This document shows positions 13,016-36,235 of a stretch of 64,000 nt of DNA, in pieces. Origin of the DNA: Ulva prolifera. Its lineage: Eukaryota > Chlorophyta > Ulvophyceae > Ulvales > Ulvaceae. The stretch lies in the NCBI GenBank assembly GCA_023078555.1, contig CM041204.1, forward strand, positions 4,618,430 to 4,682,429, read 5' to 3'. A program made the translations under genes and the position numbers. The notes under the pieces are model-generated. The model saw only the letters and a list, made by a program, of their open reading frames with translations, was not told the origin of the DNA and did not search any database. Each line of letters begins with the position of its first letter. Within the stretch, counting starts at the first letter, position 1.

Positions 13016-14051
13016 GCTGCTCAAATGCGCAGTCCGTCTTGGTGGCCGTGGTTTTTCGTTGGCCTGGCGGACAGGTCTAGCTTTGGACTCGGTCGTTCCG
13101 AGCGAAGCTTTGACCACTGTCTTATGTGAAAGGCTCCAAACACGCAAAGCGTGTTGTGGATCAGCGACCAATTCAGCTACGAGACAGGAGCATCGCCCAC
13201 GGCATCTGGTGCAAAGTGCTCCAGGCGATTTGTGTCGTCTGATCGCGTGACCACTCGTGGTCACAAACTCCCCGACCTCATACTACGTACTAACCCCCCC
13301 CCGTAGGTGGTACCGCATTTTGACGACGTGACCACGCGGCATGACGCCCTCCTGACACCCGCAAGCATCACTAATGCACCATCTCCGCGGCCTGACAAGC
13401 CAACATTCGCGCGTGACGGCCCGGCTCGTGCGCGCTGCGCGTGCGGACCGGCCAGTGGGCAATCTGCGTGCGCCGGGCAGTAACGAGTCCCGTTCCGATT
13501 CAAACCCACATCAAATCAATCCATTGTATAATAAGATGCTTTGGTGGCAGGCTGCAAGGTGTCTACTTGACCCGTGCGCCACGGGGCATCGAGTCTATCA
13601 GCGCCTACCGGCCTGTCGAAATGCGCAGCCACATTGACACAGAGCGCAAACAGGCGCACCCGACGACACTGTCCATTAAATTAAAGCGATATTAAACTTT
13701 TTGTCGCAGCAGATCGTGTCCAGACTGCCTTCATTTTTAGTGACAGGCCTGGGCTACATGCACGCGGTGTGCGGGCTCCAGATTCCAACCCGCTGCAGCC
13801 GTACGCCGCACAAATCTCCCACATTGATAGATTAATATCATTGTTGCATCTTGGAATCGATTTCAGCTATGACGTGGCACCTCAGCGGCCGTTCTGGATC
13901 CTGGAGTTTGCAACAGCTATTTGACACTGCAAGCAGGTTGGTGCGCTACTGGCAAGGCCGGAACTTAAACAACCAGTCCGTATGTAAAGATACTCGCTTT
14001 TGTGAATGATATTAGTCCGACTCGCTGGCGTCTCGTCGCGATTCTAGGTAT

Positions 14052-14803
14052 CTACTCTCTGTCAATGTGCACATTGGCTGCCATACATGGTGAGTCCATC
14101 CCCCCGGAGGACAGAGCACCAGCGGAGATCTCGTCATCTGCGCACTCAGTGGCATCTTCACAGACACCATCATCATCAGCATCTTCAATCTGGGCTGGTG
14201 CCTGTGGGTGCTGTGCAGCTGCACCCTCAGAGAAGGCTGTGCCCTATCAAGAGCAGGGCACAGCCTTCTCTGAGGGTGCAGCTGCACAGCACCCACAGGC
14301 ACCAGCCCAAATTGTAGTATACAACCCGCTCTACCTTATATCTAGCAACCAGCTTCCTGAATGCTTGAACGATAGGCCGATTTCGCTTGTCGTCATGGTC
14401 TTTGCCACCGCCTGGCAGTCTGTTTTCTATGCGGAGCTTGTCCCGCATCTCAGGTGTTGGTATCTCTGGCAGTCCAGTCGCCCTCCTCTTCTCGATCGCA
14501 TGCTGAAATACCTCTCGAGTGATGATAGGCTTCGTGATCTCTGAAGCATGTGTACAAACTGCCACAGATCAGTTAACCAAGGTACACCCAATCCAATCAA
14601 CGCAAGCACATGATAGATTACACGCCACACCGCAGAGTAACTCCATCACATCATCAGAGTGTGCATTCTATTGAAAGCCTGGGCTCACATGTGCACGTAC
14701 CAGGTGGCGGGGTGGCTGGTGCTGGAGGCATTGCTTTCCTTTGTTGTTCAGCACGCTGATGTGCTAGCCTAGCCTCCTTCAGTTGCTTCTTCCGCGATCT
14801 CAT
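14052..14803 (-). CDS. Small spliced gene of unknown function inside the inverted-repeat element
   Basis: Exons 14803-14701, 14540-14335 and 14189-14052 join in phase (GT-AG) to give 148 aa. Residues 1-35 are basic and helical (MRSRKKQLKEARLAHQRAEQ) and end in a Pro/Ala linker. The middle exon is charged (EITKPIITREVFQHAIEKRR, PIVQAFRKLVARYK). The last exon is acidic (IEDADDDGVCEDATECADDE) and ends HIDRE. I do not recognise the family. The second intron, 14334-14190, is dominated by a perfect inverted repeat (14191-14309). The gene could be the element's own cargo or a captured host gene. An in-frame extension above the ATG through an acceptor at about 14809 cannot be excluded. Confidence 0.55.
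14191..14309. repeat. Perfect 55-bp inverted repeat, 9-nt loop
   Basis: The left arm 14191-14245 and right arm 14255-14309 are exact reverse complements. The loop is ATCAAGAGC. Similarity continues with mismatches for a few more bases. On the minus strand it fills intron 2 of the small gene, with one arm reaching the 3' splice site. Confidence 0.95.
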
Positions 14804-15250
14804 CGCAGCCTACGCTGTAGAAATCTAATTAAATCTCTACTGCGAGAGTTACGGCGAAGATACAGCTCGTTATCCTGCGTCAACGCCACGAAAGCTGCGA
14901 CACAGCATGCAGGCGACCAAAGCTCCACAACACACAAATGCTGTAGCACACTTGGTGATAGGCAAACGATACATACATGCTGTGTCGTATATAGATAGGC
15001 TGTGCATTATATGCGGTACCGCTGCTTATCGGCGCTCTTGTGGTGGCTTTCGTGACGATGCATCCGCGGTGCACTCGACAGCTCTGAATTCGAATCAAAC
15101 GTTGACATTTCGCGAAAGTCGCCTTGTCAGGCCACGCAATAGGCTATTTCTGGGTACTTACATAGGAATAACCTGCGGTCTGAGCGGCGGCCTGACCTCA
15201 GTTTTGCGGGACCGAATTCGGGCCCTTTTGGGGGGGGTTAGTACGTAGTA

Positions 15251-16008
15251 CCTCAGCAACTGTCGATAACGTATCGATCGCACTTCACGCCACAAGGACC
15301 CACGCCGTAGGCGCGCCGGAAGCTCACTGCAAGCTGCGGTGGGTAAGTGCGCCTTTAGCGTAGAGCTGCGTTGACAGGCCAAGACGGCATGCGCAACATG
15401 ATCCATTTCTATTTCTAAGGCAATCAGCCTTGCACATCCTGCAGCACTGTGAAACTCGACGCTCGGGATCTACGCCTGCGTGTTCACCTACTTCCGGTTC
15501 GTAACATCGCCACACATTCGGGACGACGCTTTGTGCAGAGCTGACTTCGTTGGCTACCTTTACCGCCAGCTCGTCCTTCCTGCCTTTTTGGCCATGTGAC
15601 TGAGGCAAGCAGATCATTTCATGTCTCACACAAGCTAGGAACTCGGCTTCTAAGTGGATGTGAACAATCCAACGTGGCCTTACGACGGCTCGTGGAGCAG
15701 ACGACATGGCATCAGCACAAGGAGTGCGACGCTGCGGACAGACGCAACAACGTCACTGATACATGACCTGAGATTTATGTTCAACCACAGTGCAAGTATT
15801 CGTCATAAGCAAGAGGATGTGCCTCGTCCCCCAACTCGTGACTCAGAGCAAGATACGTCTGACACCGAAATGGAGCCCAGCTCCCTACCTGGGCAGATGC
15901 TGGAAGCCGATATGATATCTATGGCTAACGTGCGCACGATAATACATGTGATGTCTCCGATGATGGCGTGTCATGTCGATGTGGTGTATCCAGAATTGAG
16001 TTTTGCAA
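15251..16008. other. Upstream region of the channel gene, possible unplaced exons
   Basis: A plus-strand frame from 15654 (ATG) to 16139 with Ser/Asp/Glu-rich sequence could be a 5' exon of the channel. A minus-strand frame from 15707 to about 15324 is the antisense alternative. Neither has recognisable domains. Confidence 0.3.
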
Positions 16009-32791: not shown

Positions 32792-32832
32792 TGAGTCATG
32801 TTGTATTCGTTCAACGAATACAACATGACTCA
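32792..32832. repeat. Perfect 20-bp inverted repeat, 1-nt loop
   Basis: The arms 32792-32811 (TGAGTCATGTTGTATTCGTT) and 32813-32832 are exact reverse complements around a single C. Confidence 0.95.
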
Positions 32833-35114: not shown

Positions 35115-35158
35115 GTTTCACATGTCACCGGTGGCTGAAAACCGGTGACATGTGAAAC
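35115..35158. repeat. Perfect 18-bp inverted repeat, 8-nt loop
   Basis: The arms 35115-35132 (GTTTCACATGTCACCGGT) and 35141-35158 are exact reverse complements; the loop is GGCTGAAA. Confidence 0.95.
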
Positions 35159-35543: not shown

Positions 35544-35660
35544 TCGTGTAGTGTTCTTGCACTGCCACGTCAGAGATTCTCGAGATCGTGTCGTGTTGTG
35601 TTACACAACACGGCACGATCTCGAGAATCTCTGACGTGGCAGTGCAAGAACACTACACGA
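35544..35660. repeat. Near-perfect 58-bp inverted repeat, 1-nt loop
   Basis: The arms 35544-35601 and 35603-35660 are reverse complements with a single mismatch (positions 35591 and 35613). It directly abuts the left end of the short transposon at 35667. Confidence 0.95.
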
Positions 35661-35666
35661 GTCGAT

Positions 35667-36235
35667 ACCAGGGCTCTACATCCCGATCGGTTTCCCGACG
35701 AAAAATTGGAAAAAGGCAAAAAAACCGACGGCGAGCGAAGCGAGTCGTCGGTTTTCCCCGACAAGCCAGGGGGGGGGGCCGGCGGGCGTGCCCGACGGCC
35801 GCCAATGGTGCTTTTCGGGATACCCCGACCAACGCCGACAGCTTGTCAGGATCCCGAAATCCTGTCGGGCCTGAAGGCACCGGATGCACATTGCAATGAC
35901 AGAGCATTCATCAGGTGAGTCGCAACAATGTTGCTTGCTGCTTGTGCATTGCGAGAATGACCTTGCTTTCGTTCGGGTTCACTGGTCAAGGGCCGAAGCG
36001 CAGGCGCAGGGCCGAAACTCCTGCATCAGCCGACCACGGCAGCAACGAAGCGAGTTGTTCGTTGTTTCGTTGCTTCGTAAAACCCGAAAATTGTTTTTGA
36101 CACCCCTGATAGAACCTGAGGAGGTCGGCGGGCAACCCGATATCCAGCAGGGTGCTTTTCGGGGCCAGCCCGACAAAAATTGGGTATGGCTTCGGTTTAC
36201 CCCGACAAGAAAAAACCGGCTTGTAGAGCCCTGGT
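35667..36235. mobile_element. Short inverted-repeat element (MITE-like, possibly hAT)
   Basis: The ends 35667-35680 (ACCAGGGCTCTACA) and 36222-36235 are exact reverse complements. CGGTTT and CCCGAC/GTCGGG motifs recur inward on both sides and throughout the interior, along with GCGAAGCGAG-type hairpins. The size of 569 bp and CAGGG-type termini suit a non-autonomous hAT element. The expected 8-bp duplication is not clean (GTCGATAC against GTCGTGTT), so superfamily is tentative. No coding capacity seen. Confidence 0.6.

Follow-up and report, generated by a model that had tools for sequence, protein, structure and literature searches.

The long perfect hairpin at 14191-14309 of the window (the whole stretch of Ulva prolifera DNA analysed, 64,000 nt) very probably arose in a single step, as an inverted duplication made by a short-range replication template switch within exon 2 of the gene of a small TIR transposon. 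The states before and after the event, their polarity, the inversion of the loop, the separate insertions of the hairpin and the broken reading frame can be read directly from element copies within the one genome; replication as the setting we infer from the footprint that the event left.

In the window all 55 positions of the arm 14191-14245 pair with the arm 14255-14309 around a 9-nt loop (14246-14254), as the original prediction of an exact 55-bp stem with a 9-nt loop had it; when two mismatches are allowed the arms extend to 14183-14245 and 14255-14317. For the RNA of 14170-14350 a fold of -147.9 kcal/mol is predicted, whereas shuffled versions average -67.4 and none of 200 does as well (z -18.3), and the longest perfect stem with a loop of up to 60 nt in three mononucleotide shuffles of the window is 15 bp. 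Since both fold and stem length exceed the shuffles, the palindrome is far beyond chance. The stable stem-loop lies in the transcript strand, so the long dsRNA originally predicted for the transcript, if one is made, is well founded. A scan for stems of at least 14 bp with loops of up to 60 nt found four in the window, one in the locus of a second copy of the element (copy B below) and no others; these are counts for the window and 13 loci (170,711 bases, partly overlapping) and do not give a genome-wide rate. Elsewhere in the window a second long near-perfect palindrome occupies 35544-35660, with 58-nt arms that are 98% complementary and a 1-nt spacer. No other copy of it was found among the best 40 of 144 candidates, and a dispersed repeat with at least 40 matches elsewhere begins at ~35658-35667, directly at its end. 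Shorter perfect palindromes lie at 32792-32832 (20 bp, 1-nt loop) and 35115-35158 (18 bp, 8-nt loop).

The hairpin belongs to a mobile element, copy W, that is present at other loci of the genome as copies B and C. Matches to light-harvesting proteins (38) in this genome point to a photosynthetic eukaryote.

13281..15250, no strand assigned: TIR DNA transposon, copy W (window, contig C9), 1,970 bp, with exact 21-bp TIRs and a 5-bp TSD
13276-13280 and 15251-15255: TSD of W, CCTCA
13281..13301, plus strand: left TIR of W, TACTACGTACTAACCCCCCCC, exact 21 bp
15230..15250, minus strand: right TIR of W, exact 21 bp
14711..14803, minus strand: first exon from the ATG (14803), over the extent common to copy C; an ORF in W, with its 3' boundary inferred, and fused to exon 2 in C
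14227..14565, minus strand: ORF holding exon 2 of the element gene, with its 5' exon boundary inferred; it enters the palindrome after VVYY and stops there
C4:6476607-6478576: copy B, 1,970 bp, TSD CGTTG
C4:1213022-1214611: copy C (locus L040), 1,590 bp, TSD CGTCA

TIRs, a TSD of fixed length and several insertions identify a TIR DNA transposon. The first 19 bases of the TIR occur seven times in the 88.9-Mb genome among the best candidates scored (one mismatch allowed, none present in any of the seven), namely at both ends of three elements and at one end of a fourth; copy numbers are those of the best-scoring candidates, and more diverged copies may exist. The flanks of W, B and C cannot be aligned and the TSD is distinct in each of the three, which argues that they are separate insertions. 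W and B differ at 4 of 1,970 bases (13963, 14190, 14939 and 15112), one of these inside the palindrome. There are 35 aligned base differences among the three copies, including the four between W and B and seven that are alignment effects in the switched tract; the remaining 24 set C apart from W and B, at ~1.5%. Copy C is without 319 nt (14392-14710 in W coordinates), including predicted intron 1 and part of exon 2. Despite this loss, its frame stays open from exon 1 as far as the ancestral stop, with 125 codons counted between stops. The loss is C's own, because W and a related transposon family retain a PGGGK..DKRNRP stretch that is partly missing from C.

A search of Pfam with three ORFs of the W element (the first protein being a hand-made join) and two ORFs of related elements found no family above the cut-off that would name the superfamily. 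Elements at three further loci have only terminal parts in common with W, 85-91% identical in L035 and L037 and 75% over ~550 nt in L036, and the match of L036 to copy C begins exactly at C's deletion point. An ORF with PVVTRHEVQLAADERQANGLPQLPTP in L038 and L024 (C8:4501950-4502060) is 41% identical over 37 residues to the first half of the W exon 2 protein. As it resembles that half, the W gene seems to combine parts of two distinct element proteins.

The comparison of C with W and B gives the two states of the site. Reading on from the left arm, which all three have, C continues with GCTCTTGAT and the flank AGTATACAACC, whereas W and B continue with ATCAAGAGC, the complementary arm and finally TAGTATACAACC. 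ATCAAGAGC is GCTCTTGAT read on the opposite strand, i.e. the loop is inverted with respect to C. Copy B has the same palindrome as W, with a perfect stem of 60 bp (60 of 60). The parts of the structure in W are as follows.

14186..14245, plus strand: left arm, the original one: coding sequence of the minus-strand gene, retained from the ancestor at its place; C differs from it at 14226 and, through the change private to W, at 14190
14246..14314, minus strand: added tract of 69 nt, a reverse complement made up of the inverted 9-nt loop and the new arm and recognized by its match to C; it replaces 8 ancestral nt and shows no W/B difference
14246..14254, no strand assigned: loop ATCAAGAGC; C has its reverse complement, GCTCTTGAT, here
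14190, no strand assigned: W-only substitution, C (T in B and C), which makes a minus-strand AG and one arm mismatch

The new tract, tested on B, equals the reverse complement of C element positions 906-974 at 68 of 69 bases, a source that overlaps the site itself. Relative to C, W and B have thus exchanged 8 nt for a 69-nt reverse-complement tract, a net gain of 61 nt with one mismatch, and the inverted duplication originally proposed as the origin of the arms is borne out. The single mismatch falls on the pair 14226/14274, which is alike in both arms of W and B; therefore the substitution either predates the duplication or arose in C. When all diagonals are searched under the four-point template-switch model, a single solution turns C into B with 5 edits over 291 nt, the next best diagonal costing 42 and the best of 100 shuffled-insert controls 35. 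In our reading of this search the first junction has 2 nt in common and the return junction none, for which reason the breakpoints alone cannot separate replication switching from break repair.

The direction of the change is given by the related transposon family, of which there are three copies of 2.46 kb, two on C1 and one on C3 (L032:3061-5520, L034:2660-5117 and L033), with ends TACTACGTGGTAACCCCCCCC, an ORF of 336-367 codons and, as read from the flanks, 5-bp TSDs in the two copies with both ends readable. The L033 copy is interrupted by ~2.7 kb of other sequence. The three are ~99% identical to one another and so count as one outgroup lineage rather than three. The end of their protein is homologous to that of the W gene, at 67-70% DNA identity between the related copies and C or W. 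On the minus strand C reads LVARYKVERVVYYQEQGTAFSDGAAAQHPQAPAQIEDAD... (VVYYQEQG...) as uninterrupted coding sequence to a stop 66 residues past VVYY, and the related family reads LVARYKMERVVYYQDLGMSVTEH(A)DAEQPGTP... (VVYYQDLG...) in all three copies. An ungapped comparison with the related family past VVYY gives C a best score of 34 (P 0.00015, 20,000 shuffles) and W one of -10 (P 0.90). At the DNA level C can be aligned with L032 and L033 across the site (125 columns, no gaps, 67%); its alignment with L034, which is without one codon further on, is shorter (82 columns) and begins at C position 968, barely inside the site. For W, the alignment to each of the three related copies sets in at the palindrome's right end, element position 1034. 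Because the related family matches C past VVYY and aligns across the site, the uninterrupted one-arm state of C is, on this sequence comparison, the ancestral one, and copy C together with one outgroup lineage supplies the ancestral state of which W and B are the descendants. The polarity is drawn from ~30 residues and that one lineage, and at the nucleotide level the state before the event is represented by C, a single copy that is itself altered elsewhere. After VVYY the W ORF continues for 28 novel residues in place of the 66 and stops inside the palindrome; the 61-nt insertion frameshifts and truncates the predicted element protein.

On the proposed mechanism ...GCCCT would be the last sequence copied before the polymerase switched, although the exit may lie up to 2 nt before that (CT being common to both). 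The enzyme would then have run backwards along the opposite strand for 69 nt, beginning at the T of GCTCTTGAT and ending at the C of CAATTTGGG, and would finally have gone back to where this backward stretch had started, yielding old arm, inverted loop, new arm and old flank. The outcome would be the gain of 61 nt, the frameshift and a shortened protein that has lost its C-terminal tail. The event would fall after the split of C from W and B and before that of W from B; the hairpin-bearing element would then have transposed at least once, and W would have acquired its one arm substitution (14190) later. According to the available part of PMC7954356, the nascent strand cannot serve as template for a switch with point 2 ahead of point 1, and inter-strand switching was inferred from loop inversions in the portion of PMC8794818 available. 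Since the loop here is inverted, point 2 is ahead of point 1 and the nascent strand is by that logic excluded, an inter-strand switch, to the other parental strand or to a sister strand, is the likelier form; the argument from point 2 should hold for either copied strand. Because the two palindrome copies sit between unrelated flanks and have different TSDs, transposition is the probable means by which the hairpin came to be in both; gene conversion between copies could also have done this but need not be invoked.

The sequence of W and B would be the same had a fold-back inverted duplication, self-primed or made by break repair, come first and the 9-nt loop been inverted later, and loop inversion of existing hairpins has been described (PMC8794818, in the part available). 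This path is nevertheless quite unlikely, invoking two events where one suffices and having left no intermediate in W or B. Repair of an existing near-palindrome is disfavoured as well, because the ancestral RNA had no notable fold: at the site the RNA of copy C is not unusual (z -1.3; 25 of 200 shuffles as good). The single template switch thus stays the preferred origin. It also makes the palindrome young, as the original prediction had suggested, for it arose after the C split, within ~1.5% divergence. The suggestion made there that the arms might instead be constrained is not needed: half of 1.5% over 120 arm bases gives fewer than one expected mismatch, so that a mismatch-free stem in the W/B ancestor is unremarkable and perfect arms call for no selection. 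Nor is a function of its own needed to explain the hairpin.

The hairpin was originally predicted to be nearly the whole of a 145-nt second intron (14334-14190), gained or expanded by the inverted duplication. Copy W does have GT at 14334-14333 and AG at 14191-14190, and removal of the 145 nt would by our reading rejoin the ancestral downstream frame, K being followed by IEDADDDG. A real spliceosomal intron is nonetheless very unlikely. The AG, whose place at the stem edge had been pointed out, is found in W only, where it came from a substitution later than the palindrome, B and C having T at 14190; donor and acceptor are thus not both present in every insert-bearing copy, as B is without the AG. 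In C the donor GT falls within a Val codon, and the related family has ATG at this place. Nor is the stretch to be removed the extra sequence, since the insert is 61 nt and, of the 145 nt that splicing would take away, 84 are coding in C; the stretch as a whole is coding in C and in the three related copies. The acceptor would moreover sit at the edge of a 55-bp stem. The search for the same intron in other copies of the element, which had been proposed as a check, therefore speaks against it: on the evidence of copies B and C and the related family the intron is rejected, and at most there could be a cryptic intron in W alone. No route to intron gain is demonstrated either, the duplication being exonic and frame-breaking and the AG having come later by point mutation.

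That the palindrome is ancestral and C lost one arm is highly improbable. Hairpins are prone to deletion, and C is without another 319 nt nearby, but this reading asks of C the exact deletion of a single arm, a reversal of the loop and the lucky recovery of a frame that matches the related family. The match of C to that family past VVYY strongly disfavours the loss. Fold-back artefacts occur in long-read libraries, but the chance that an assembly or library artefact accounts for the palindrome is negligible, as the same junction is found at a second locus (B) with different flanks and TSD in an element differing at 4 of 1,970 bases.

If transcribed, the hairpin is a plausible, putative substrate for a host Dicer and Argonaute. 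The genome search for these, by their Piwi and RNase III domains, gave six Piwi-domain matches, five of them above the cut-off, at two loci. One RNase III match genome-wide was above the cut-off; a second, ~4 kb upstream on C6, is weak (25.0 bits against a cut-off of 27). Of five ORFs compared two match RNase III, one Piwi and two nothing, and the RNase III pair would fit a Dicer-like gene split by introns. The further idea that the switch made a self-targeting dsRNA out of part of a transposon gene, a newborn mobile hairpin spread by transposition, is unlikely; were it true, small RNAs could silence the one-armed copy and the hairpin's own source, a miniature mobile analogue of the Mu killer locus within ~1.5% divergence of its birth.

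Point mutation does not easily lead to long perfect hairpins, and here one genome holds the state before the event (C), the fresh palindrome (B, 60 of 60 bp) and its first decay (W, one mismatch). With outgroup polarity and separate insertions, these copies point to an inherited structure and make a compact natural test case for the origin of hairpin RNAs, and the single substitution in W illustrates how a splice-like AG can mislead annotation. Among the literature titles searched, with texts covered in part, none concerned a template-switch palindrome in a transposon. A later paper reportedly deals with de novo miRNAs from template switching.

Several known systems share features with this hairpin. 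The symmetrical stwintrons of the Hypoxylaceae and the introns derived from them also have inverted repeats of 45-55 nt at their ends; they occupy many gene positions without target duplications, as far as the available part of PMC8469720 describes them, whereas here there is one exonic event in a transposon. In Chlamydomonas, hairpins in mRNAs are cut by DCL3 (PMC4817775, available part), i.e. hairpins in algal coding transcripts can be Dicer substrates. Mu killer of maize is likewise an inverted duplication of part of a transposon's own gene with the potential for hairpin RNA against its family; it comprises ~1.3 kb of the transposase gene and has reported silencing, by the available text of PMC3440606. 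The palindrome described here is of 60 bp and, unlike both the Chlamydomonas hairpins and Mu killer, is known from its sequence alone.

The template-switch RNA hairpins of MIR633 and of rRNA stems, as presented in the available part of PMC8794818, are closer in origin: the stem is perfect when a single event creates it, and mismatches are added afterwards, as at 14190 in W. In the present case, unlike those, stem formation and loop inversion would have coincided, a paralogous transposon copy in the same genome preserves the ancestral state, and any processing or selective retention of the hairpin is hypothetical. The nearest likeness is to short-range template switching under the four-point model, in which a reverse-complement tract replaces a few ancestral bases, a perfect inverted repeat results, and ancestor and descendant are compared. 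For great apes the available part of PMC7954356, where the four-point model cited is that of Loytynoja and Goldman, gives tracts with a median of 12 and a maximum of 128, so that the 69-nt tract of W and B is within range but long for the class. It departs from that class in being carried by a mobile element of a photosynthetic eukaryote, and in that, by the logic set out there, only inter-strand switching fits. The mutational class is thus a known one, and the clean before and after pair, the inverted loop and the two insertions make this a good example of it rather than a new kind.
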